32,840 nt of DNA, taken from positions 1 to 32,840 of the forward strand of contig JACZWL010000037.1 in the NCBI GenBank assembly GCA_022572185.1, written 5' to 3'. Both the position numbers and the translations under genes were made by a program. Each line of letters starts with the position of its first letter. Position 1 is the first letter of the stretch. The notes under the pieces were generated by a model, which did no database searches, was not told the DNA's origin, and worked only from the letters and a program-made list of their open reading frames with translations. Shown piece by piece: positions 3,498 through 32,840 of the stretch. The DNA is from Pseudomonadota bacterium. Lineage in GTDB: Bacteria; Pseudomonadota; Gammaproteobacteria; Steroidobacterales; Woeseiaceae.

Positions 3498-3535
3498 GTC
3501 CGACCGCCATGATGGCGGGAGTGCAGGTCAGGACG
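3498..3535. repeat. Partial copy of the dispersed hairpin repeat, between convergent genes
   Basis: The 75-bp gap between parC and the convergent FimV-like gene contains GTCCGACCGCCATGATGGCG followed by GGAGTGCAGGTCAGGAC. It shares the GTCCGACCGCCATG-ATGGCG core with the repeats at 12453-12639 and 29412-29480. CCGCCAT/ATGGCGG can pair as a hairpin, and GTCC/GGAC frames the copy. A run of T follows on the plus strand (it encodes the Lys run at the end of the minus-strand gene), so this may serve as the parC terminator. That role is inference. Confidence 0.6.
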
Positions 3536-5639
3536 CTTTTTTCTTCTTCTTGGTATCGATCCTGCCGGACTCGATTAACATGTCGACTGTCACATCATCA
3601 TCGTTGGCAGGCATCACCACAGTGACATCAAAGTCCGCTGTCGGCATTTCCGTGGTCGGCCCTTCCTGGATGGCCGTCTTGTCAAGATCGCTGATGTCGT
3701 CATTTTGAGCCGGCGTATTTTTCGGTAGCTCGGCCGTAATTTCACCGCTCCCGTCCTTGTCCATACGCGCGGCCAACTCGGTGGCCGCTTTGGCGATTTC
3801 TTCGTTCAGCGCCTGGGTCGCCGTAAACTCCTCTTCGTAATCCTGTTCGAGAATCTGGTAATCGACTTCCTGGCGCAGCGTCGAATCCTCGGACTCCGTG
3901 ATGTTGTCGATCTCGACCAGAACGGCTTGCAAGTCCTTCGTCGTGGAATCCAACTCACCCAGATTCTGTTTCGTTGCGTCGACGATCATCGACAGGTCAT
4001 ACTGGCTGTCGTCGTCACTCGGCGGTATTTCCTTGTCGAGAATGGCGTTTTTGTCTTCACGCTCGGGCGGCGGGATCATATCCGTTTCCGAAGAGTCTTC
4101 CTCTTCGGCCGCCGACTCCGGCAGCACCATGTCCAGTTCGTCTTCGAAGTCGGTTGATGCAGAGAAGCCGAAATCCTGTGCAACATCGATATCCGAGCTG
4201 TCCTGCAGTCCCGTGCCGTCGTCAAAATCAGCATCGAGCGTGATCGACGACGAATGCGGTGATGAAACCGGTATCTCAAAGTCAACGTCGGTGACGGCCA
4301 TGGCTTTGGCTTCCTGCCGCACAGGATCTGTCCTGCGGCGGTTGGGGCGCGGCTCCAGCGGCGTTGCAATGGCCACGGAGCCAAATCGTTGCCTGAATCT
4401 CTGACCGAACAGCAGGAGACCGAGAATCAGCGCAAGACCGCTGCCGCCAAGCCACATCAACCATGACCAGGAACCGCTGGTGCCACCTGCGGTTTCACCG
4501 TCCTGACTGGTTTCGCCAGCGGCGACCGGCTGAACCAGTCGCGGATCTGTGAGTTCGGCGTCGGCCAGAGGCCCGATCGGAGATACGAACGGGCTGTCGT
4601 CACCGAAAACAATGTCTCCGGGCCGCAGGTTGGCAAATTCAGAAACGCCTGTGTCGGGTTCCGGGACTGACAACGCCTCGGTCTCTGGCGCGTCTACTAC
4701 AATGGCTGCCGGCACTTCATCCGGTACAAAAAATATCTCTTCGGTCTCGAGTACGGCCGTCGCCTCATAACCGGTATAAGCTTGCGTATAGCCGGGCTCA
4801 CTTGCCGTTGTCATAACAGCTTCGGCAACAGTCGGTTGCGATGCCGCGACAGACAGGTCCGGTATCTCGAGCCAGCTGCCGGCTTTCAGCCAGTTCCGGT
4901 CGCCGTCGACAAACGCACCCGGGTTTGCGGTAAATATCCGCTCGACGGCCGGCCACAGTGCGATCGAACGATCGGCTATGCGCGAGGCAATTTCCGACAA
5001 TGAATCTCCGCGCTGCACCAGGTAGCGGCTGTTTTCGGAGATCGGCGAGCGATCCCCAAGCCTGCTCCGCCCGGCCCGTGCCTGTGGTTTCGCTGCCTCG
5101 GCCACGGCGGTGGAGGTCACCGCTACGGAACGCCAGGCAGCGGAAGATTCGACCACTACAGGCGCATCTGCTACAGGCGCATCTGCTACAGGCGCCTCTG
5201 CGACGGTCTGCGCGGGGTCTATCATCAGCGTAAATTGACGGCTGATGTGTGCCGTATACGGACAGTCGACTGAAACCTGCATGGTCAATAATGGTTCCCG
5301 AATAGCACGATTGCCCGCCAGGAGAATCATGCCATCGGCAATGCTGACCGTCGCCCGGCTGACAGAGGGCAGGCCATTGGCCGCAAGGCCGGGCTGCAGA
5401 TAGACACAATAGTCATAAATCGCTTCATGCGGGTTTAACGCGAATGCAATGCTTGCGCGTAACGGCTGTCCCAGGGTCGAGTTGATTTTCAATTCGCCGA
5501 GTTCGACAGCCGAAGCCGAAACGGCCATCATGCTGCATGCACCGCCAACGACCATCAGTGCAGGCAGCAGCTGCTTGCGGCTGTTTCTGCATTTGCCGGT
5601 GGTCCTGTTCTTTTTGTTATTTCCTTTTGATGCTTTCAC
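3528..5639 (-). CDS. FimV/HubP-like LysM inner-membrane protein (second FimV paralogue)
   Basis: Predicted cell-pole/peptidoglycan-associated protein of the FimV/HubP type, about 703 aa from the GTG at 5639. Order: a basic N-terminus and signal peptide ending near SASA; a FimV N-terminal domain starting VELGELKINSTLGQPLRA; an Ala/Pro/Val/Asp linker; a LysM module near residues 200-255 (YLVQRGDSLSEIASRIADRS); one membrane segment near 393-415 (WLMWLGGSGLALILGLLLF); then a long acidic cytoplasmic tail ending in a Lys run. The tail lacks the clear C-terminal TPR motif seen in the fimV at 16136. The start is uncertain: the frame stays open to a TTG at 5702, and GTG 5639 was chosen because it gives a basic n-region before the hydrophobic core. 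It follows the FimX-like gene on the same strand, with a 321-bp leader holding a CRP/Vfr-type operator. Role in type IV pili or polarity is inferred. Confidence 0.82.
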   Translation of the reverse strand: MKASKGNNKKNRTTGKCRNSRKQLLPALMVVGGACSMMAVSASAVELGELKINSTLGQPLRASIAFALNPHEAIYDYCVYLQPGLAANGLPSVSRATVSIADGMILLAGNRAIREPLLTMQVSVDCPYTAHISRQFTLMIDPAQTVAEAPVADAPVADAPVVVESSAAWRSVAVTSTAVAEAAKPQARAGRSRLGDRSPISENSRYLVQRGDSLSEIASRIADRSIALWPAVERIFTANPGAFVDGDRNWLKAGSWLEIPDLSVAASQPTVAEAVMTTASEPGYTQAYTGYEATAVLETEEIFFVPDEVPAAIVVDAPETEALSVPEPDTGVSEFANLRPGDIVFGDDSPFVSPIGPLADAELTDPRLVQPVAAGETSQDGETAGGTSGSWSWLMWLGGSGLALILGLLLFGQRFRQRFGSVAIATPLEPRPNRRRTDPVRQEAKAMAVTDVDFEIPVSSPHSSSITLDADFDDGTGLQDSSDIDVAQDFGFSASTDFEDELDMVLPESAAEEEDSSETDMIPPPEREDKNAILDKEIPPSDDDSQYDLSMIVDATKQNLGELDSTTKDLQAVLVEIDNITESEDSTLRQEVDYQILEQDYEEEFTATQALNEEIAKAATELAARMDKDGSGEITAELPKNTPAQNDDISDLDKTAIQEGPTTEMPTADFDVTVVMPANDDDVTVDMLIESGRIDTKKKKKAS

Positions 5640-5832
5640 AAATTCATACCCCGGTACTGGTATTGCCCCAATCGGCAGTTTCGACCGTCCGGTCCATATC
5701 AATCACCGAGTAAGCGGCAAAATCCCGGACTAGCAAAGAGATACGGCAGATTAGAGCGGCCCGAAAAAGCTGTAAACGCGCCTTTTCTATGTTTCGGGAA
5801 ATTACTTCCCGTGAAGGGCTTTTTGAGGGCAA

Positions 5833-12452: not shown

Positions 12453-12639
12453 CCTGACGGCCGATGAGTAGACAATGGCAGGAATTGTCCGACCGCCATG
12501 GATGGCGGGGGTGCAGGTGTTGCAGGAGCATTCACCTGCCTGACGGGCGATGACTCGACAATGGGAGGAGATGTCCGGCCGCCACGGATGGCGGGGGTGC
12601 AGGTGTTGCAGGAGCATTCACCTGCCTGACGGGCGATGG
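12453..12639. repeat. Tandem two-hairpin dispersed repeat (86-bp unit, 2.2 copies)
   Basis: Units start at 12453 and 12539, with a partial third at 12625; each begins CCTGACGG(C/G)CGATGA and is 86 bp long. Each carries two hairpins: CCGCCA/TGGCGG (second copy has CACGG for CATGG) and GCAGGTG/CACCTGC around TTGCAGGAGCATT. Related copies lie at 3498 and 29412. The array fills the 227-bp gap between the divergent sco and prmB genes, so promoters of either gene must lie in or beside it. Confidence 0.85.
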
Positions 12640-12646
12640 CTTTTTG

Positions 12647-13582
12647 ATGCACCAGCATTTCAGCAACAGGCGCTTACAAACTGTCGCGGATTTCATCCGC
12701 CAGACGGCGGCTGCCTTCGAAAATGCCGGGCTGAGCTACGGACACGGCACCGACAATGCGCTTGACGAAGCGGCCTACCTGGTATTCGCGAAACTCGGCC
12801 TCGATCATGATCGGGCCGAGCAACACTATGCCCGGGAAATAGATAATAAAGAATCGGCACTACTTGCCTTACTGGTCGAAAAACGCATCCGCGATCGAGT
12901 GCCGGTGGCCTACCTGGTGAGGCAGGCCTGGTTCGCGAGCCTCGAGTTCTATGTCGATGAACGCGTTGTGATTCCGCGTTCTCCGCTGGCCGAAATCATC
13001 CTGAACCGCTTCGAGCCCTGGGTGGCTCCCGACAACGTCCGCCGTGCCCTCGACCTTGGCACCGGGAGCGGGTGCATCGCCATCGCGATGGCGATCGCTT
13101 TTCCCAATGCCGTGATCGACGCTGTGGATATCTCGCAAGACGCCCTGGCCGTGGCCGCGATCAATGTCGATCGTCACGCCCTGAACAGACGCATCCGGCT
13201 GATTCGATCCGGGTTTTTCAACAATCTGGAGCATATGCGCTACAACCTGATCGTCAGTAATCCGCCCTATGTCGATCGCCACGAGATGGACGATCTGCCG
13301 CCCGAATTCCGACACGAGCCGGCGGATGGGCTGGCTGGCGGTGATGATGGTCTGGATTCGCTTATAACGATCCTGCATGATGCGTCACGTTTCCTCGCTG
13401 AAGACGGATTACTTGTCGTTGAGGTAGGCAACAGCCAGGCGGCGCTCGAGCAACGGTTTCCGGAGATCGCATTCGTCTGGCTCGAATTTGAACAAGGGGG
13501 CAGCGGTGTGTTCCTGCTGACCCGGGACGAGCTTGATCGCCATCAGGATGCCATAGACAGGGCGGCATCCGAGCGGGTGTAG
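12647..13582 (+). CDS. prmB: 50S ribosomal protein L3 glutamine methyltransferase
   Basis: 311-aa class I SAM-dependent methyltransferase that methylates the glutamine of ribosomal protein L3. The N-terminal helical domain is followed by the SAM site [16 protein letters not shown], then [11 protein letters not shown] and the catalytic NPPY in [14 protein letters not shown]. PrmB rather than PrmC is favoured by the segment [21 protein letters not shown] and by position directly upstream of aroC, as in many gammaproteobacteria. The ATG at 12647 directly follows a TTG and is the likelier start; a dispersed repeat ends 8 bp upstream. The TAG stop at 13580-13582 shares its last base with the start of a palindromic element. 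Confidence 0.93.
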
Positions 13583-13841
13583 TACTCCGTCAAGGTGATA
13601 TTGATGGATTCAGAGCCACCCAGATGATCCAGGACAAGGCGCAGTCCGCAGGGAATGGCATGTTTGCAAGGACTGCAACGCCGTATTGGATCATCCGGGT
13701 AGCTCCCTTCGGGCGAGCCGTGAAGCGGTCGTCCGCGGTGTTGCGCCTCTTGGCAAGGACGCGCCATTACCGGCGAGGCGCGCCTGGCGGCCAACCGCTT
13801 CACGACTCGCTGAACCCATCAATATCACCTTGACGGAGTAC
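13582..13841. mobile_element. 260-bp palindromic MITE-like element
   Basis: Terminal inverted repeats of 32 bp (13582-13613 and 13810-13841) match at 31 of 32 positions and start GTACTCCGTCAAGGTGATAT. Between them are two large inverted repeats: 13623-13695, with arms GATGATCC/GGATCATC extending imperfectly inward, and 13713-13810, with arms GCGAGCCGTGAAGCGG / CCGCTTCACGACTCGC (one mismatch). There is no coding capacity. It occupies the whole prmB-aroC gap, begins at the last base of the prmB stop and supplies the GGAG at 13835-13838 upstream of aroC. No target-site duplication is obvious. Confidence 0.8.
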
Positions 13842-16135: not shown

Positions 16136-19100
16136 ATGTCGCGAAATCTGACCCGTATATGGCCGCTGCTTGTTTTGGCATTGACAGGCGAGGTCTGGGC
16201 ATTGGGCCTGGGAAATATACGGCTGAGTTCTGCGCTGAATGAGCCTCTGAGGGCAGAAATCGAGTTGCTGTCGGTGATGCCCGAGGAACTGGGCAACCTC
16301 GATGTATCGCTTGCCTCATCAGAGACTTTCGAAAGATATGGACTCCATCGCCCGTTATTTCTGCAGCAAATTGTTTTTAGAGTCGTCTCGAGCGGGCGTG
16401 TCGAAGGCAATGTCGTTACGATAACGTCGCTGGATCCGGTTACAGAACCCTTTATTACATTCCTGGTAGACGCAACATGGTCACGCGGCCGTTTGCTGCG
16501 CGAATACACACTTTTGCTCGATCCACCGACTTTTGCACCGCCGTCGGAGGCCGGGTCGACCACGGCCGTTGTCGCTCCGCGGCAATCGACGCAAGCTGAC
16601 AGCGGCAGAATCGAGCGCCCGTCGAGTTCGCAAACCGCGCCACCACCTTCGGGTCCCGCATCGTCAGGCTTGGCGCCGCCAGCGTCGGCATCGTTCGATA
16701 CGACCGGGGGCGGTGATTACTACGTGCAACGCGGCGCCACGTTGTGGACCATTGCGAAAAGTGTGAGACCCGACAGCCGGCTAACGATGAACCAAACAAT
16801 GCTGGCAATCTTCGCAGCGAACCCCGAAGCGTTCGCCGGCAATATCAACATCATGAGGGCTGGTGCCAGTCTCAGAATTCCGAGCGCCGACGATATTTTC
16901 AGGATAAGTCGCGGCAGTGCCCTCGACGAAGTCCGCCGGCAAAACGCAGCGTGGGGCGGCGTTACGCCTGACGCCGGCACCAAGCCGAGCCTGGTGCTTG
17001 TGCCGCCCGACGATGAGCAGACCGGTTACGACGGCGGCGTGCGGCCATCGGGCGCTGGCGCCGGTGATGCCGCGACAGCTGAACGCATCCGGCGACTCGA
17101 ACAACAGATTGAGGATCAGGATACCTTAATTGAAATCCGTGACGACGAACTTGCTGCGCTCCGGGAAGAATTGGCTCGCCTGCGGGGTCAGGAAATTCTC
17201 GAGCCGGATGCGGTGGAGGATGACGTAGGCGCAACGTTCGCTGACGAGGATGCGATGATCGATACCGAGCTCGAACCGATGGCGGATGATGATGCCATCA
17301 TGGCGGGCGATGACGGCGAAGAGTTTGGCGTTGAGGATGCCGAAGCGGTAGACGATGCGGAACCGGAAACCGCGACGACGGCACCGCCGCGCGTAGTGAC
17401 TGCACCGTCGCGAGACGAGGCGGGTATCGTCGAACGCGTCATCGATGCGCTGTCCGGGTTCTGGGGAATCCTGATAGGCGGTCTCTTGATCGTCCTCGGC
17501 CTGCTGGTCTGGTTTGCAAGACGTTCCGCTCGCAGTGACGATGAGGAATCGACCGGTGTGTGGGATGCACTCGATGCCGACGACCTTGATGGCGAATCAC
17601 TGGCCTCGACGGAAAGACTGCGCGCTCTCGCCCGCGAGGACGATACTGCGATTATCGTTGTAGAACAGGAAACTGCGCCGGCCCGGGACGAACGCGAAGA
17701 GGCGGAGACGGCCGAGACCATCGAGGCGCGTGCAGCACCAGAGGAGCCGGCCGCAGAGCCGGACCCGTTCGAGATGGCCGCAGCGCCGGAAGCGTTGGAG
17801 ACCGCGGCTGAACCCGTGTCGCTTGATGACTCGTTCAGTAGCGAAACCGCGATAAACCTTGATCAGTCCGATCCGGTGGCCGAAGCCGATTTCCACATGG
17901 CATACGGTCTGTACGACCAGGCGGCCGATCTGGTCAACGGCGCGCTCGCTATCGAGCCCGAACGCGAGGATCTCCTCAGCAAGCTTTGCGAGATTTACTT
18001 TGTCTGGGGTAACCAGGATGCGTTCGTCGATGCCGCGGGCCGTTTACGCACAGCCCTGGCTGGCGCTGCCAGTTCCGAGTGGGACAAGGTCATCATCATG
18101 GGTCAGCAGATAGCCTCTGACCATGAGATGTTTGCCGGCGCTTCCGCTGGCATGGCCGCGACACGCTCAGTTGACCTTTCATTGGATGGGGCGCTGGACG
18201 AGGCAAGCGAACTCGATATGGATTTCGCCGCTGGTGCCGCCGACGCTGCCGATGATGTCATCGATCTGGGCGAGGGCGCCGGGGATGAGGGCCTCGATCT
18301 GCTCCGCGACACCATGGGAACATCGGCTTTGCAAGAAGCGGACACGATAGAGTCGGGGCCTGAAGAGACGGCCCAGATGCCAGAGGTCGCAGGGATCGAA
18401 GAGACGGGTTCCACTGCTGAAATGCCAACGGCAGAAACGGATCTCGGCGGTGGCACGGCGGAGATGCCAACGGCAGAAACGGATCTCGGCGGTGGCACGG
18501 CGGAGATGCCAACGGCAGAAACGGACCTCGGCGGCGGCACGGCGGAGATGCCGACGGCAGAAGCGGACCTCGGCGGCGGCACGGCGGAGATGCCGACTGC
18601 TGAGACGTCGCTCGACGATACCGACGTCACGGCTGAATCGGCGCTCGATGATTTGGACGCCACGACCGAAACGCCGCTCGATGATGCGGGCGTCACAGCG
18701 GAAACGCCGACCATCGAACAACAATTCCAGACGCTCGAAGAGACGGGCGAATTGCCGTCGATCGCAGCCGACGAAGTAAGCAAAGTGACTTCGCTTGACG
18801 AAGAAGCAAAGCCGGTAGATGCGACGGCTGAAATTGATCTCGATGACCTGGGATTGGACCTGGAGGGCATTCCCGAAGCGAGTTTTGCGTCCGATCTGGA
18901 TGACACGACTGAACACGAAGCCCTCGCGGCGACAGGCAAGAATACGGAGCTGGATGATGATGCGGAATCCGGCACGGGTAGCTACCGAGGCCCGGAGATT
19001 GACCCGAGCCTGCTCGACGCTACCGGCCAGACTCAGATCCTGAGCGAGGATTATACTGTCGATACCGCAGCCGATGTCGGCGATGTTATTTCCGACCAGG

Positions 19101-19585
19101 AGAAAACATTGGTGGCGTCCGGACTCGATGACGACGAAACGGTGGACAGCCCGATCGGCGATGCCGAGACCTTGCTTGCGCCGATGGATGATGACTCGGA
19201 TGAATCAACGGTTCTGGTGGACATGGAAGGCGATTTCGACTTTGCAAAAACGGAGTCCCTGCCGCAGGACGCATTCACGGCCATGGGCGCGGATCTCGGC
19301 GACCTGACAGGCGCGTTCGGCATCATCGAAGATGGCGATACCGTCGATCAGCCCCGAGACGACGAAACTGTCGACCAACCGGGGCCCGGGCCTGCCGATG
19401 CGGCCGACCTGCATGATGATGCCCGCACGATGACGGAGGTTGGCACGAAACTCGACCTCGCGCGTGCTTACGTCGATATGGGCGATCCGGGCGGTGCCCG
19501 CAGCATACTGGAAGAAGTGCTCAACGAAGGCGATGATAGCCAGAAGCAACAGGCACAACAGTTGCTTGATGCGCTACCTGAATAA
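16136..19585 (+). CDS. fimV: FimV polar peptidoglycan-binding pilus-assembly protein
   Basis: 1149-aa inner-membrane hub protein needed for type IV pilus assembly and polar organisation. Order: signal peptide (residues 1-22, ending EVWA); FimV N-terminal domain (LGLGNIRLSSALNEPLRAEI); LysM-like module ~190-250 (YYVQRGATLWTIAKSV); coiled coil ~313-352; one membrane helix ~440-462; TPR-like segment ~581-640 (ADFHMAYGLYDQAADLVNGA); a very acidic tail with 14-residue tandem repeats at 760-824; and the conserved C-terminal TPR domain (KLDLARAYVDMGDPGGARSI). A GGAGAGG ribosome site lies 7 nt before the ATG. Its place between asd and truA is the canonical fimV locus. A shorter paralogue is at 3528. 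Confidence 0.95.
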   Translation: MSRNLTRIWPLLVLALTGEVWALGLGNIRLSSALNEPLRAEIELLSVMPEELGNLDVSLASSETFERYGLHRPLFLQQIVFRVVSSGRVEGNVVTITSLDPVTEPFITFLVDATWSRGRLLREYTLLLDPPTFAPPSEAGSTTAVVAPRQSTQADSGRIERPSSSQTAPPPSGPASSGLAPPASASFDTTGGGDYYVQRGATLWTIAKSVRPDSRLTMNQTMLAIFAANPEAFAGNINIMRAGASLRIPSADDIFRISRGSALDEVRRQNAAWGGVTPDAGTKPSLVLVPPDDEQTGYDGGVRPSGAGAGDAATAERIRRLEQQIEDQDTLIEIRDDELAALREELARLRGQEILEPDAVEDDVGATFADEDAMIDTELEPMADDDAIMAGDDGEEFGVEDAEAVDDAEPETATTAPPRVVTAPSRDEAGIVERVIDALSGFWGILIGGLLIVLGLLVWFARRSARSDDEESTGVWDALDADDLDGESLASTERLRALAREDDTAIIVVEQETAPARDEREEAETAETIEARAAPEEPAAEPDPFEMAAAPEALETAAEPVSLDDSFSSETAINLDQSDPVAEADFHMAYGLYDQAADLVNGALAIEPEREDLLSKLCEIYFVWGNQDAFVDAAGRLRTALAGAASSEWDKVIIMGQQIASDHEMFAGASAGMAATRSVDLSLDGALDEASELDMDFAAGAADAADDVIDLGEGAGDEGLDLLRDTMGTSALQEADTIESGPEETAQMPEVAGIEETGSTAEMPTAETDLGGGTAEMPTAETDLGGGTAEMPTAETDLGGGTAEMPTAEADLGGGTAEMPTAETSLDDTDVTAESALDDLDATTETPLDDAGVTAETPTIEQQFQTLEETGELPSIAADEVSKVTSLDEEAKPVDATAEIDLDDLGLDLEGIPEASFASDLDDTTEHEALAATGKNTELDDDAESGTGSYRGPEIDPSLLDATGQTQILSEDYTVDTAADVGDVISDQEKTLVASGLDDDETVDSPIGDAETLLAPMDDDSDESTVLVDMEGDFDFAKTESLPQDAFTAMGADLGDLTGAFGIIEDGDTVDQPRDDETVDQPGPGPADAADLHDDARTMTEVGTKLDLARAYVDMGDPGGARSILEEVLNEGDDSQKQQAQQLLDALPE
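18413..18607 (+). repeat. 42-bp in-frame tandem repeat in fimV
   Basis: Four and two-thirds copies of a 42-bp unit (starts 18413, 18455, 18497, 18539, 18581), each encoding TAEMPTAETDLGGG. Units 2 to 4 are almost identical at the DNA level, differing at a few third positions and one Thr/Ala change. The near identity suggests recent expansion by slippage or recombination. Confidence 0.92.
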
Positions 19586-28416: not shown

Positions 28417-28445
28417 TTGACTGATTTCGGGGGCGCCCGTATGAT
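28417..28445 (+). promoter_or_regulatory. Strong sigma-70 promoter of the tRNA cluster
   Basis: TTGACT (28417-28422) and TATGAT (28440-28445) are separated by exactly 17 bp and lie 55 bp before tRNA-Pro. The stretch after the -10 box (CGTGCCCCGCC) is very G+C rich, the discriminator type of stringently controlled stable-RNA promoters. Confidence 0.8.
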
Positions 28446-28499
28446 CGTGCCCCGCCAGGTCCGGCTTAGACCGAACTTGGGCGGGTCTGGATCTGGCAG

Positions 28500-28576
28500 C
28501 GGGGCATGGCGCAGTCTGGTAGCGCATCTGCTTTGGGAGCAGAGGGTCGGGGGTTCGAATCCCTCTGCCCCGACCA
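28500..28576 (+). tRNA. tRNA-Pro(UGG)
   Basis: 77-nt tRNA with encoded CCA. Acceptor CGGGGCA pairs with TGCCCCG; the anticodon loop TTTGGGA on stem TCTGC/GCAGA gives anticodon TGG; the T arm is GGGGGTTCGAATCCCTC. First gene of the cluster after the promoter. Confidence 0.97.
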
Positions 28577-28626
28577 GCCACTAGATCCGGCGTGTTTTTT
28601 TGTGAGGAGAATGCCTATAAATTGTT

Positions 28627-29097
28627 GCGCCCGTAGCTCAACTGGATAGAGCATCGGCCTTTAAATCATGGAGCCTGCATCGGGAAACAGAACCGATGCA
28701 GTGGACTGCACCGTAACGGGGAAACCTTAACAGGTAATGCTGATGGCAATCCCGTGGAAACCTGTGGTCGACCCGTACGTCAGTGTAGACTGCGCTCATG
28801 AAGCGGTTGCATCAGATGTTAGCAAAGGGTGACCTGGGAGTCTTGAAGGCTCAGATCGACTTATTCGAGCAAGTTTCGTTCGAATGCGACGCTGAGGGTA
28901 AAGGCCCCCAAGAATAGTCAGGCTAAGCGTGTTAATTTCGCTGCCGATTATCGTAGGGCTCCGTAGAGACTATACGTGCAGCGCCTGAGATGGCGAAGAG
29001 ATAGTCCAGACCACAAACCCGTGAACTTGGGGCCGCGAAAGCGGTAGTTGGTAAGCTAAGCCGAGGGTTGCAGGTTCGAGTCCTGCCGGGCGCGCCA
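28627..29097 (+). tRNA. tRNA-Arg(UCU), interrupted by a group I intron
   Basis: The 5' exon is 28627-28661 and the 3' exon 29056-29097. Joining them gives a 77-nt tRNA: acceptor GCGCCCG/CGGGCGC, D arm GCTC...GAGC, anticodon stem TCGGC/GCCGA with loop CTTCTAA (anticodon TCT), a 5-nt variable loop, T arm GCAGG-TTCGAGT-CCTGC, discriminator G and encoded CCA. The interruption falls between positions 34 and 35, inside the anticodon. All stems pair perfectly, so the gene looks functional after splicing. Confidence 0.95.
28662..29055 (+). ncRNA. Group I self-splicing intron in tRNA-Arg(UCU)
   Basis: A 394-nt intron with the group I core. The 5' exon ends in U and the intron ends in G, as the class requires. 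Helices that pair by eye: P2 28675-28683/28693-28701 (9 bp); P3 CTGCAC 28706-28711/GTGCAG 28976-28981; P4 ACGGG 28716-28720/CCCGT 28751-28755; P5 ACCT/AGGT around TAAC at 28724-28735; P7 GACTAT 28968-28973/ATAGTC 29001-29006 (guanosine site); P8 CGCC/GGCG 28982-28995; P9 CCGC-GAAA-GCGG 29033-29044. P1 is weaker: exon GGCCTT with GGAGCC near 28670, with one C-A mismatch and two G-U pairs. The P6 region (~28756-28960) is enlarged. No convincing homing endonuclease is present. It resembles the small tRNA-borne introns of bacteria (subgroup IC3) by architecture; the subgroup is inference. Confidence 0.93.
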
Positions 29098-29195
29098 AAT
29101 TTTCCCTCGATTTCCGAGCAAACGAAAATGGCTTTGAAAATTTATCTTGAGTGAAGCGACGAAAGCAGAGTTAAGATACAAACAAAAGAACCGAT

Positions 29196-29272
29196 GGTGG
29201 GCGTAGCTCAGTTGGTAGAGCCCCGGGTTGTGATCCCGGTCGTCGTGGGTTCGAGTCCCATCGTCCACCCCA
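29196..29272 (+). tRNA. tRNA-His(GUG)
   Basis: Acceptor GTGGGCG pairs with CGTCCAC (one G-U), with the extra 5' G (-1) at 29196 opposite discriminator C73, the identity mark of tRNA-His. Anticodon loop TTGTGAT on stem CCGGG/CCCGG gives GTG; the T arm is GTGGG-TTCGAGT-CCCAT; CCA is encoded. A possible separate promoter (TTGAGT ... TAAGAT, spacing about 19) lies in the 98-bp gap upstream but is weak. Confidence 0.96.
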
Positions 29273-29411
29273 ATCCACCCTGACTTGCTGATCGTGAGGT
29301 GACGGCAGGGGAGGATTGATCTTTAGTCCCGATAACAAATAATTGCGGGAGCAAATGCAAAAAAAGGCGCCAACAGGAACACGGCAACGGGCAAAAAGTA
29401 AAATGCAGAAG

Positions 29412-29480
29412 CGGTCCGACCGCCATGGATGGCGTGACTGCAGGTGTTGCATGAGCATTCGCCTGCCTGACGGGCGATAA
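29412..29480. repeat. Single copy of the dispersed two-hairpin repeat
   Basis: Within the 234-bp gap between tRNA-His and tRNA-Lys, GGTCCGACCGCCATGGATGG starts a copy of the unit seen in tandem at 12453-12639. It has the same CCGCCA/TGG(C)G stem, the GCAGGTGTTGCA(T/G)GAGCATTC loop and the end CCTGCCTGACGGGCGAT. The rest of this gap (29273-29411) shows no gene; part of it is A-rich. Confidence 0.82.
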
Positions 29481-29506
29481 GTAAATTGCGTGTCAACAGA
29501 AACGCT

Positions 29507-29583
29507 GGGCCTCTAGCTCAACCAGGCAGAGCAACGGACTCTTAATCCGCAGGTTCGGGGTTCGATTCCCCGGGGGCCCACCA
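29507..29583 (+). tRNA. tRNA-Lys(CUU)
   Basis: Acceptor GGGCCTC pairs with GGGGCCC (one U-G), and the D arm is GCTC...GAGC. The anticodon loop CTCTTAA gives anticodon CTT; the stem ACGGA/TCCGC has an A-C mismatch at 27-43. The T arm is CGGGG-TTCGATT-CCCCG, discriminator A, encoded CCA. Last gene of the cluster. Confidence 0.94.
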
Positions 29584-29665: not shown

Positions 29666-30136
29666 TATTAGTTTTCCAATCGTTTTCAAATCGTTTTCCA
29701 ACTCCGCCAGCCACCCGCGAAAGCCCGGAATTACATAACATCTGCCCATGTTGTGAACCCGGTCACACTGTCGACCAGAACTAGCCCCACAACTGCCATG
29801 GCGTTCACATCCGCAACGCCGCTAACTCTCTAATATTTCCAAAGTTATCGTGTCTCGCGAGGGGTAGGCGAGCCTGGAAATCGGCGACCCTGACGCAACG
29901 GCACTTTCGCGAATTAGCAACGGGTCGATGGGCGACCTGTTTTCGCGTGCGTTATTGGTGCGGAAATCAATAGTTTGAATACCATGATGGTGACTACCGC
30001 GAAGCTCAACAATGCGAGGCCGGGCCACAGCCACGGGCGCGCTGACAAGCACTGCGGCCGGAGGAAAGCTTCATGCGTCACCACGCACCACCAGGCGGGT
30101 GCCGGGAACCGAACTCATGACGATGAGGCATCGCCG
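29666..30136. other. Intergenic region without a convincing gene
   Basis: About 470 bp between the tRNA cluster and the surface-protein gene. It holds a short direct repeat around 29676-29700 (AATCGTTTTC twice). The surface-protein frame stays open back to ATG codons at 29984 and 29987, and there are two tiny ORFs at 30073-30140. No strong promoter or terminator was seen; the minus-strand open frames here have no recognisable content. Confidence 0.5.
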
Positions 30137-30140
30137 GTGA
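30073..30140 (+). CDS. Two overlapping mini-ORFs leading into the surface protein (possible leader peptides)
   Basis: ATG 30073 is preceded by a strong GGAGGAA ribosome site (30060-30066, 6 nt spacing) and encodes 15 residues, MRHHAPPGGCREPNS, ending TGA 30118. Its stop overlaps the next start (ATGA) of a 7-codon ORF, MTMRHRR, whose TGA at 30138 overlaps the GTG start of the surface protein (GTGA). The arrangement suits translational coupling. The first peptide carries Pro-Pro-Gly, a known EF-P-dependent stall motif. Expression is unproven, and a frameshift error in the assembly could also produce this layout. Confidence 0.35.
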
Positions 30141-32840
30141 ACAACGATGGCATCCATAAGCCAAATCTGGCGCTACTAGCCGCCCTCCTGGTCTTCGTGT
30201 TTGTCCCCGGGATCTCGGCGGCGGCCGGGAGCTGTGTAGCCGCTGATGGTGCGGCTTCCACTGGAACCACAGTCGGTGGTACCAGTATGACAATCTCACA
30301 CACGACCTCGGGCACGGAGCGCCTGATGCTGGTCGGCGTCTCCTTCGGCTTGGGCAGCGGGGAGTCCGTCAACGAGGTCAGGTACAACGGCGATCCCCTC
30401 AACTTTGAGGGTGCTATAAATGGCCCCGGCAACGACTCCCGGATCGAGATCTGGTCGCGGGTCGCGCCGGACACGGGCACGCACAACGTGGTGGTGACCC
30501 TCAGCGCCGGCACCCACGACGGCGCGACAGCCGGGGTGATGACCTTCACGGAGGTCCACCAGGCGACTCCCCTGGGAACCTTCGCGTCGAATGCGGGCGA
30601 TTCCATGAGCGCTTCCACGACGGTCAGCTCCGCTGTGGACGAGTTGGTCTTCGGTGTGGTGGCCGTGGACGACACCAGCGACCGCGACCTGGTCCCCGGG
30701 GCGGGTCAGTCGCCGGAGCGCTGGGATATTCATGCAGACTCGGCCAACGGCGGAGGTAGTACCGAGGCAGGTGCGCCCTCGGTCGTGACGTCGTGGAGTT
30801 GGAGCCCTGTTGCCGATGACTGGGCCATCGGTGGCATTTCGATCAAGCCGGCGGTGAGTTGCGGCACTTCCACCATCTCCGGGACCGTCTTCGAAGATGT
30901 GAATTACGGTGGCGGCGTGGGCCGGGATCTCGCGATTGCCAATGCCGATGCGCCAGCCTTCACGATTGAACGCGACGGGGTCACGGTCGAACTCTACGAT
31001 GCGGGCGGTAACTTCATTAGTAACACCACCACGGCGGGCGGTGGTGTCTACAGCTTTGCCGCTCTGACGCCGGCGAACTATACCGTGCGCGTGGTGAACA
31101 CGACGGTGACCTCCACGCGGGTGGGCTCCACGGGCGCCGAGGTGGCGGTGCAGACCTATCGTATTGATGGCGACGGCGAGCCGGTGGGCACCGGCGCGAA
31201 CAAGGTCGGCGGTGAGCAGCCGATCGATCGCGATTCGCCCGCGAACGATACGACCCAGACCCTGGCCGATCTGCAGGCCCTGGCGAATCAGTTCACCCAA
31301 TCGATCGTTACCGTTGATGCCAGCGGCGGTGATGTCACGGGGGTCGACTTCGGCTTTAACGTCGACAGCATTGTTAATACCAACAATGCGGATCAGGGCT
31401 CGCTGCGGCAGTTCATCCTGAACGCCAATCTGCTGACCGATAACGCCGCACTGGCGCAAAACGGGCGCACCGCCGGCGTTGAGAACTCCATCTTCATGAT
31501 CCCGGGGACGGGGGATGCCCTGGGCCGCCCGGCGGATCCGAACTACTCCGCCGCGCCCTTGAGCTACACCATCACGCCGACAGCGGTGCTGCCAACCATC
31601 ACCGATCCGGTGGTCCTGGACGGTACGACGCAAGCAGATTTTCCAGGCACACCGATCATCCTCCTGGACGGTAACGATCTGGCGGCAAGCGGCTTGACGC
31701 TCGGTGGGACCGCCGACGGCAGCACTATTCGCGGCTTCGTCATTCGCGATTTCGGCGCGAACGGCATCCTCCTGCAGGCGGGATCGGACGGCCACCTCGT
31801 CGCCGGCAATTACATCGGCCGACTGACGACCGCGGGCACAGGCGCCGGAGCTGGGGAGGAGAACGCTGGACGTGGCTTCGAGGTCCTCTCATCGAACAAC
31901 ACGATCGGTGGCACGACCGCCGCCGACCGCAATGTGATCTCGGGGAACACTGGTGAGGGCATGATCATCCGCTCCGGCGCGGCCAACAACATCGTGCGCG
32001 GTAACTACATTGGCGTCGCGGCAAACGGCACCAGCGCCCTCGGAAACAGCCAGGAGGGGATCCAGATCGACACGGGTTCGCCAGGCACGATCATCGGCGG
32101 CTCCGCGGCGGGTGCCGGGAACGTCATCGGCGCCAATGGTATTACGAGCGGCGCCGCCATTTCGATCGGCGGCGATAACAGCGACAACACCGTAGTGCAG
32201 GGCAACTTCATCGGCACCGACGCGACCGGCACGGTGAACCTGGGCAACCTTCGGTCGGGCGTCGAGGTTCGCGGCAACAGCGTGGCCGCGACCAGCCCGC
32301 TGAATACACTGATTGGCGGGACCAACGCGGGCGAAGGAAACACCATCCGGTTCAATGCGCTCGATGGCGTGCGCGTACGCAACGTCGCTGTGGACGTCCA
32401 CATCGTCGGCAATGCGATCGACCAGAATGGCCAGCTCGGTATCAACCTCTGGCCCGACGGCGCCAACGACAGCGTCACGGCAAACGACGCGCTCGATGCC
32501 GACGCGGGGTCGAACGATCTGTTGAACTTCCCGGTCATCACTGCGGCCAGCGAGAACGCGGGCACGGTCGGTGTCTACTTCGACCTCGATCTCATTGCCG
32601 GGGATTATCGGATCGAGTTCTTCACAAACCCCTCAGGCGCGGATCCCACCGGCAATGGCGAGGGGGAGGTTTATACCTCGTTCGTCGTTATGGCTCACAC
32701 CGGTTCCGGCGTCGAGTCTTTTTTCCACAGCTTTGCCGGTTCCGCCGGCGACATCATTACCGCCACGGCGACGGAGCAATTGGGCGGGCCGACTTATGCC
32801 TCGACGTCGGAGTTCTCGGCTGCATTTACGGCGACCGCAT
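30137..32840 (+). CDS. Large secreted surface protein (SdrD/Cna-B plus beta-helix), 5' part
   Basis: The frame is open from GTG 30137 to the window edge, 901 codons without a stop. GAGG 8 nt upstream supports this start. A signal peptide (KPNLALLAALLVFVFVPGISAAAG) leads into a beta-sandwich-like domain (~residues 30-235). An SdrD/Cna-B-like domain follows at ~240-330 (ISGTVFEDVNYGGG ... VTVELYDAGGNF ... YSFAALTPANYTVRV). Then comes a right-handed beta-helix with repeats such as GNYIGVAANGT, GNFIGTDATGT, NTIGGT and GNVIGANG, preceded by the family segment NADQGSLRQFILNANL. The protein is probably exported and attached or secreted; adhesion is only inferred. Several long minus-strand frames here are its shadows. 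Confidence 0.88.
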   Translation, partial: MNNDGIHKPNLALLAALLVFVFVPGISAAAGSCVAADGAASTGTTVGGTSMTISHTTSGTERLMLVGVSFGLGSGESVNEVRYNGDPLNFEGAINGPGNDSRIEIWSRVAPDTGTHNVVVTLSAGTHDGATAGVMTFTEVHQATPLGTFASNAGDSMSASTTVSSAVDELVFGVVAVDDTSDRDLVPGAGQSPERWDIHADSANGGGSTEAGAPSVVTSWSWSPVADDWAIGGISIKPAVSCGTSTISGTVFEDVNYGGGVGRDLAIANADAPAFTIERDGVTVELYDAGGNFISNTTTAGGGVYSFAALTPANYTVRVVNTTVTSTRVGSTGAEVAVQTYRIDGDGEPVGTGANKVGGEQPIDRDSPANDTTQTLADLQALANQFTQSIVTVDASGGDVTGVDFGFNVDSIVNTNNADQGSLRQFILNANLLTDNAALAQNGRTAGVENSIFMIPGTGDALGRPADPNYSAAPLSYTITPTAVLPTITDPVVLDGTTQADFPGTPIILLDGNDLAASGLTLGGTADGSTIRGFVIRDFGANGILLQAGSDGHLVAGNYIGRLTTAGTGAGAGEENAGRGFEVLSSNNTIGGTTAADRNVISGNTGEGMIIRSGAANNIVRGNYIGVAANGTSALGNSQEGIQIDTGSPGTIIGGSAAGAGNVIGANGITSGAAISIGGDNSDNTVVQGNFIGTDATGTVNLGNLRSGVEVRGNSVAATSPLNTLIGGTNAGEGNTIRFNALDGVRVRNVAVDVHIVGNAIDQNGQLGINLWPDGANDSVTANDALDADAGSNDLLNFPVITAASENAGTVGVYFDLDLIAGDYRIEFFTNPSGADPTGNGEGEVYTSFVVMAHTGSGVESFFHSFAGSAGDIITATATEQLGGPTYASTSEFSAAFTATA

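Follow-up and report, generated by a model that had tools for sequence, protein, structure and literature searches.

The 394-nt insert that divides a tRNA-Arg(UCU) gene within the stretch of DNA analyzed here (32,840 nt, hereafter the window) is supported as a group I intron lying between positions 34 and 35 of the tRNA, because its flanking exons form a tRNA, its helices covary, it matches covariance model R1 and no second UCU gene was found in the 96%-complete genome. Judged from sequence, it is highly probable that this is a group I intron with a decayed endonuclease, which should self-splice and which is kept by descent. An earlier note on the same DNA had described a group I intron in this gene; the finding is real and that reading is confirmed.

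The split gene and its ribozyme

The 5' exon (28627..28661, + strand) ends in U34, the 3' exon (29056..29097, + strand) runs from C35 to the CCA, and the intron between them (28662..29055, + strand), placed by pair counts and covariance model R1, has G as its last base. The joined exons comprise 77 nt and form a complete cloverleaf with a UCU anticodon that ARAGORN types as tRNA-Arg(tct), and the insert thus occupies the bond between U34 and C35; the two halves around 394 nt given in the earlier note were exact in their coordinates. ARAGORN run on the genomic sequence reported no tRNA at the split gene, and a tRNA-Leu(taa) proposed there by its intron mode was ruled out for its poor cloverleaf. 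A splice point one base later, which gives the anticodon UUU, was rejected because the intron would then not end in G.

The split gene stands in a cluster (28417..29583 overall, + strand) in which ARAGORN called tRNA-Pro(UGG) (28500-28576) upstream and tRNA-His(GUG) (29197-29272) and tRNA-Lys(CUU) (29507-29583) downstream, all on the + strand, with a promoter-like site ahead of tRNA-Pro (28417-28445, + strand) proposed from a consensus match alone (10/12 matches). Just 3' of the cluster, a 955-aa open frame at 29975-32839, repeat-rich and secreted-looking by eye, runs off the end of the contig. Elsewhere the window holds an intergenic 86-bp tandem repeat (2.2 copies, 12453-12638), which a string near 29410-29460 resembles by eye; a large FimV-like protein, so named by eye, at 16136-19585, with an in-frame 42-bp tandem repeat at 18422-18594 (4.1 copies, 96% match); and a second FimV-like ORF at 3528-5702.

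A hand-written model of the ribozyme, consisting of P1, P2, P3, P4, P5, P6, P7, P8, P9.0, P9 and P9b with 56 pairs, found all 56 pairs standard in the window. We aligned the window intron with 31 distinct homologs no longer than 300 nt (32 introns, L115 being left out), and 99.3% of the 1,792 cells were paired, a value that fell to 33-43% when partners were slid by 1-3 columns. Changes on both sides occurred in 25 of the 56 pairs and in 192 cells, against a shuffled mean of 49.6, and none of 500 shuffles reached any of five covariation measures.

All helices lie on the + strand. P1 (28656..28675) pairs the exon end GGCCUU (28656-28661) with the guide GGAGCC (28670-28675), with a U-G at the splice site and one C-A mismatch; it is invariant in the 32 introns and therefore shows no covariation, and none was seen in P9.0 (29010-29012 with 29050-29052). 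Both-side changes were present in 8/8 pairs of P2 (28676-28683 with 28693-28700), 3/8 of P3 (28706-28714 with 28974-28981), 2/5 of P4 (28716-28720 with 28751-28755) and 2/5 of P5, which P4 encloses (28725-28733 with 28740-28746), in one pair of P6 (28756-28762 with 28956-28962), and in 1/6 pairs of P7, the guanosine site (28966-28972 with 29002-29007), 2/4 of P8 (28982-28985 with 28992-28995), 3/3 of P9 (29018-29020 with 29029-29031) and 3/4 of P9b, which has the GAAA loop (29033-29036 with 29041-29044). The window thus contains P3-P8 with the P3/P7 pseudoknot and P9.0, the elements of a group I core. Helices P2, P3, P4, P5, P7 and P8 and the GAAA-capped P9, which the earlier note had folded by eye, are all present and covarying, and the exon U and terminal intron G that it had pointed out are kept in all 32 aligned introns, with U34 opposite G in P1. 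The GAAA loop and the C-G pairs of P5 are only compatible with subgroup IC3. Minimum-energy folds of the whole precursor (z about -2.9 and -3.0) lacked the P3/P7 core and were set aside as proof of a group I structure.

The covariance search that the earlier note had proposed gave a divided answer, with no match of the window to Rfam RF00028 up to E 1 and a clear match to R1, a family model that draws on 13 minimal homologs, leaves the window out and omits P7 (180.5 bits at 28701-29055, E 1.7e-49, E values of this model being rough because its calibration was short). At the gathering score RF00028 accepted one of seven tRNA-Arg(UCU) intron loci, L115, which has another core; the minimal homolog L093 matched it with 39.5 bits (E 4.1e-7, model positions 1-253), under the 50-bit cut-off, and L064 and L068 gave no match at E 1. 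Because L093 matches below the cut-off and R1 matches the window, we rejected the RF00028 miss as a refutation of group I identity and attribute it to a gap in the Rfam model; a missing Rfam match is weaker as a test than structure.

RF00028 also brought up introns of other kinds. The L115 intron (L115:6314-6550, a Halothiobacillus sp. MAG), which scores above the cut-off, is a different-core group I intron at the same 34/35 bond of tRNA-Arg(UCU). Two further group I introns were found in the window's own genome, one (L001, G000:C24:87363-87601) with exons that fit tRNA-Ile(CAU) split after position 36, and the other (L002, G000:C17:117194-117400) in 23S rRNA by eye and preceded by a possible endonuclease remnant.

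Distribution among bacteria and apparent need for the split gene

Intron matches at E 0.01 were obtained in 69 of 396 genomes of the order, with strong matches (best E <=1e-15) in 41 of the 396. Of 30 loci fetched from the order, all but L038 and L046 have both tRNA-Arg(UCU) exons flanking the same bond (28/30), and the uninterrupted copies examined in relatives (4/4 loci) sit in the same Pro-Arg-His-Lys cluster. Counted by an exact anticodon-arm pattern, which undercounts, uninterrupted copies were present in 219/396 genomes of the order, but among strong carriers in 2/41 (G009, G248), versus 217 of the 355 others (Fisher P 5.5e-13, the genomes not being independent).

When named species genomes were scanned for the 3' junction, at least 117 stretches came up, from which 80 loci were taken. 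Among the matches listed, both exons were found in 73/80, the 3' exon alone in five (L079, L091, L095, L117, L137), and two were chance matches (L089, L097); the named carriers among these matches are mostly Gammaproteobacteria and include Woeseiaceae, Ca. Thiodiazotropha, Thiohalophilus thiocyanatoxydans and Thioalkalivibrio sp. XN8, and a Hydrogenimonas MAG (L098) among them also has both exons. In the class, ribozymes of this family or akin to it are common, with R1 matches at E 0.001 in 65/369 sampled genomes, other tRNA hosts included. For 30 R1 loci, cloverleaf fits made without a shuffled control, as were those of the viral loci below, placed 16 introns at the 34/35 bond of Arg(UCU), the window included, with one in Arg(UCU) at 36/37, five in Leu(UAA), two in Arg(CCU), one in Thr(UGU) and one in a CAU tRNA; no host could be fitted for four.

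The genome (3.14 Mb, 96% complete, 99 contigs) yielded 34 tRNA matches, 33 of which ARAGORN typed, the weakest (L025) remaining uncalled. No uninterrupted tct tRNA was present among the typed tRNAs of this 96%-complete genome, the other Arg anticodons being CCT and TCG, and a search with the joined tRNA gave perfect matches to the two window halves alone, followed at 88% by the gene with anticodon CCT. The earlier note had named an intact second copy of tRNA-Arg(UCU), together with a silent split copy, as evidence that would speak against it; no such second copy was found, although one could be missing from the data because the assembly is in 99 contigs and 96% complete. AGA occurs 39 times and AGG 54 times in the 7,517 codons of 17 window ORFs.

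These data bear on two rival explanations of the insert. It is very improbable that the split gene is a dead pseudogene whose AGA codons another tRNA reads, as the incomplete genome and the decayed endonuclease would allow, since the exons form a perfect cloverleaf, every core pair is kept, no other UCU gene was found, AGA is in use in the window ORFs, and the uninterrupted pattern is absent from 39/41 carriers of the order. An assembly error or chance insertion, for which the fragmented assembly of the window might speak, deserves practically no credence and is refuted by the homologs, which share structure and bond in many independent assemblies, among them those of the named isolates Thiohalophilus thiocyanatoxydans and Thioalkalivibrio sp. 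XN8.

In group I splicing a guanosine attacks the 5' splice site and the freed exon then joins the 3' exon. Applied to the intron in the window, a precursor probably transcribed together with the tRNA cluster would pair its last exon base, U34, with the guide G in P1; guanosine bound in P7 would attack after U34, and the freed U34 would join C35, which follows the last G of the intron. The mature tRNA-Arg(UCU) would then read AGA and AGG. What appears to be the sole AGA-reading tRNA of the genome would thus rely on a ribozyme that the Rfam group I model does not see, and because ARAGORN fails to see a tRNA interrupted by this ribozyme, carriers may seem to be without it.

Endonuclease remains and phage relatives

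The introns collected here (90 distinct, 101 with repeats) range from 202 to 690 nt, and 28 of them are longer than 600 nt. An ORF of 136-186 aa, as called, was found in 23 of these 28, an undercount because the filter missed two more long introns (L051, L052) with intact-looking ORFs of 149-154 aa; none was found in long introns L098, L140 and L144. The one ORF run against Pfam, that of L048, belongs to PF11645 PDDEXK_5 (E 2.8e-38), and a profile combining 17 intron-encoded proteins with one from a phage finds I-Ssp6803I, 2ost, at E 9.3e-9. Across the 23 proteins the median omega was 0.11 (range 0.02-0.21; 122 pairs with a synonymous difference <0.74).

In the window, tblastn located the remains of this endonuclease in the P6a loop (28763-28955, + strand). 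The N-terminal remains, matched by intact homologs, lie in frame 2 (28804..28872, + strand; intron nt 143-211) within a 39-codon ORF (28798-28917, + strand), and the C-terminal remains, which correspond to the last 31 residues, lie in frame 3 (28871-28963, + strand; intron nt 210-302; E 2.4e-16), so that the two ends stand in different frames and the middle is lost. The TAG stop of the C-terminal frame (28964-28966, + strand) is inside the ribozyme core, within the conserved string CCGUAGAG, and P7 as modelled begins its pairing with the last base of this codon, so that coding sequence and ribozyme core overlap. Compared with Pfam, the 39-aa ORF matched no family, and the window contains no intact PDDEXK_5 domain. 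The earlier note's account of the intron's content thus holds for the group I fold and had left the decayed endonuclease ends unlisted.

The long, intermediate and minimal introns would fit gain and decay of an endonuclease. In the past, P6a of the intron in the window probably housed a homing endonuclease of the PD-(D/E)XK type, from which we infer homing mobility at that time; as this endonuclease is now internally deleted and out of frame, the intron is presumably kept by descent and must still splice.

Relatives of both the ribozyme and the endonuclease were found in viral sequences, and the wider picture, above all this phage side, is of greater interest than the intron alone. A search of IMG/VR with the core string ATAGTCCAGACCACAAAC gave at least 120 stretches, from which 80 loci were taken, and the Arg(UCU) 3' junction added one further locus, L184. 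When a cloverleaf was fitted to these 81 loci (L184-L264) with a threshold of 19, a split tRNA was obtained in 50 of the 81 among the matches listed, and the anticodons of these 50 fits were UAA (33), CAU (10), UCU (4), GUU (2) and UUG (1), where those of the UAA fits that have a short variable arm are possibly not tRNA-Leu; some of the remaining loci lie in protein genes. The phage status of most of these contigs is that given by IMG/VR, genes having been viewed in L184, L207, L230 and L249. The 4.9-kb contig L249 has an intron-split tRNA-Arg(UCU) (R1 139 bits), a terminase large subunit (PHROG 38, E 2e-47) and, about 75 nt downstream of the split tRNA, a free-standing PDDEXK_5 protein (E 1.6e-17). 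No clear phage gene was seen among the genes viewed in L230 (83 kb), a contig on which 440 nt separate two group I introns (13030-13196, in tRNA-Arg(UCU), and 13638-13816) and which also has PP-loop (TilS-like) and SpoU methylase genes. Among named phages, the isolated Agrobacterium phage Atu_ph07 (L309) has a tRNA with anticodon UAA that is interrupted by 278 nt, in a region lacking any tRNA annotation, and Microcoleus phage My-WqHQDG has a 286-nt annotated tRNA-Arg adjoining a PD-(D/E)XK nuclease.

Relatives of the intron endonuclease with up to 59% full-length identity occur in 41 IMG/VR loci, in Synechococcus phage Sf-FR1 (58.7% full-length, 68 nt downstream of an uninterrupted tRNA-Arg(UCU)) and in Acinetobacter phage Herod (41.5%, just downstream of tRNA-Arg(tct)), which together make 43 free-standing loci (L344-L386). 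An uninterrupted tct tRNA is present in 37 of these 43, and such tRNAs make up 37 of the 154 tRNAs counted there in all. Where any tRNA was called (40 loci), the nearest one is tct in 30; these are not counts of independent events, because many of the contigs are near-duplicates. The arrangement varies, with the tct tRNA on the other side of the endonuclease ORF in L351-L354, L358 and L385 and about 420 nt from it in L371, a neighbor called as Pyl(cta) in L344 (whose loop also reads cttcta by eye), Ser(GCU) adjoining in L375 and L376, and no tRNA found in L381. L377 is the L249 contig, and in L378 the tRNA-Arg(UCU) is split and the endonuclease within it is broken. In many phage loci the end of the endonuclease ORF overlaps the adjoining tRNA by several bases. 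Among four more distant relatives, one in Salmonella phage vB_SenA_SM5 lies beside tRNA-Met-CAT, one in Streptomyces phage Navo overlaps tRNA-Ser(gct), a third has a tRNA-Ala about 200 nt away, and the fourth has no tRNA within the stretch viewed. In the endonuclease tree the 23 intron proteins are monophyletic (SH-aLRT/UFBoot 89.3/96), whereas their nesting among phage proteins is weak, with UFBoot of 22 to 69.

Origin and known systems

Our tentative reading of these relatives, to which we give a little less than even credence, is that the intron in the window is a decayed mobile element assembled at one tRNA-Arg(UCU) bond from two phage-carried parts, which would be a group I ribozyme of the anticodon loop and an endonuclease of the PD-(D/E)XK type that stands free beside the uninterrupted tRNA-Arg(UCU). 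The apparent stages would run from an endonuclease next to an intact tRNA in phages, through a split tRNA with an adjacent endonuclease in viral contig L249, to an endonuclease within P6a in bacteria, and then to the decayed endonuclease of the window, the minimal intron and the empty site, with phage tRNA arrays as possible carriers between species. With the phage relatives, the joining of a free-standing endonuclease and an intron into one mobile element can be studied at a tRNA gene.

A FastTree analysis of the cores groups the window-type bacterial Arg(UCU) introns with that of viral L249 and with L324, which sits at another site, the node that joins the two halves of this clade having a support of 0.00. 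The clade adjoins gammaproteobacterial Leu(UAA)/Thr introns, L115 and one L230 intron, and this union has a support of 1.00. The window clade does not include the Arg(UCU) introns of L115, L230, L184 and L207, which suggests that introns probably entered tRNA-Arg(UCU) more than once. The tRNA-Ile(CAU) intron of the same genome was ruled out as a direct source of the window intron, as it reaches 38 bits over part of R1.

Two other accounts of the intron's history were weighed. Derivation from a tRNA-Leu(UAA) intron through the shared 34/35 site, as the earlier note had suggested with the cyanobacterial intron in mind, draws on the fact that gammaproteobacterial and viral Leu(UAA) introns split the same bond and on the fully supported union of the window clade with gammaproteobacterial Leu/Thr introns, but we regard it as unlikely: the tree, which is without cyanobacterial sequences, gives no direction, and several of its deep nodes have support near 0; the cores differ, with R1 scores of at most 99.4 bits for Leu(UAA) introns against mostly 136-200 for Arg(UCU) introns of the window type whose match is undivided; and the position of L115, L184, L207 and L230 outside the window clade makes more than one donor likely. 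Somewhat less likely still is that the intron remains mobile here by means of a PDDEXK_5 endonuclease acting in trans, whether cellular or brought by a phage. Patchy presence at one site in the order and the free-standing relatives beside tRNA-Arg(UCU) in phages would agree with this, but the intron's own endonuclease copy is deleted, and its genome gave no match to PF11645, a weak negative because 14 control genomes also gave none.

The host tRNA is not new, since a part of PMC4853749 describes tRNA-Arg-TCT genes of Beggiatoaceae (BOGUAY and Ca. Thiomargarita nelsonii Bud S10) that contain putative group I introns. These resemble the intron in the window in host tRNA, in occurring in gammaproteobacteria and in a tRNA annotated as missing; in that part they are putative and come without structure or type. 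Missed tRNAs caused by fMet and Ile2 introns are described in a section of PMC8450103, and a passage of PMC4033280 lists group I tRNA introns for cyanobacteria and alpha- and betaproteobacteria. The viral split tRNA genes, Atu_ph07 included, counter a statement in a 2014 review (PMC3984707) that the phage introns observed to date were all in protein-coding genes. Our literature search, which left most subscription journals outside, found nothing published on phage tRNAs with group I introns, nor on PDDEXK_5 genes beside tRNA-Arg(UCU).

The intron in the window shares with the Azoarcus-type intron of tRNA-Ile(CAU) its group I class, its bacterial host and its place in a tRNA anticodon loop; the Azoarcus type, represented in the same genome by L001, differs in sitting after position 36 and in its other core, with a low, partial R1 match and a score above the RF00028 cut-off. 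Cyanobacterial tRNA-Leu(UAA) introns split the 34/35 bond. The tRNA-Leu(UAA) introns seen here in gammaproteobacteria and viral contigs share this split with the window but have another host tRNA and lower R1 scores. For the endonuclease, a close known system is I-Ssp6803I (PDB 2ost), a homing endonuclease of the PD-(D/E)XK type from the tRNA-fMet intron of Synechocystis; the two are alike in their PD-(D/E)XK profile match and in coming from a tRNA intron, whereas host tRNA differs, sequence identity is low and the copy in the window is decayed. Bonocora and Shub reportedly described in 2009 that gene 5.3 of phage T3, free-standing beside an uninterrupted gene, is homologous to I-TslI of the phage PhiI intron. 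The arrangement here is similar, with a free-standing endonuclease beside an uninterrupted gene and a homolog inside the intron of that gene; however, the T3 5.3/I-TslI pair are HNH enzymes at a polymerase gene, whereas those described here are putative PD-(D/E)XK enzymes at a tRNA gene.
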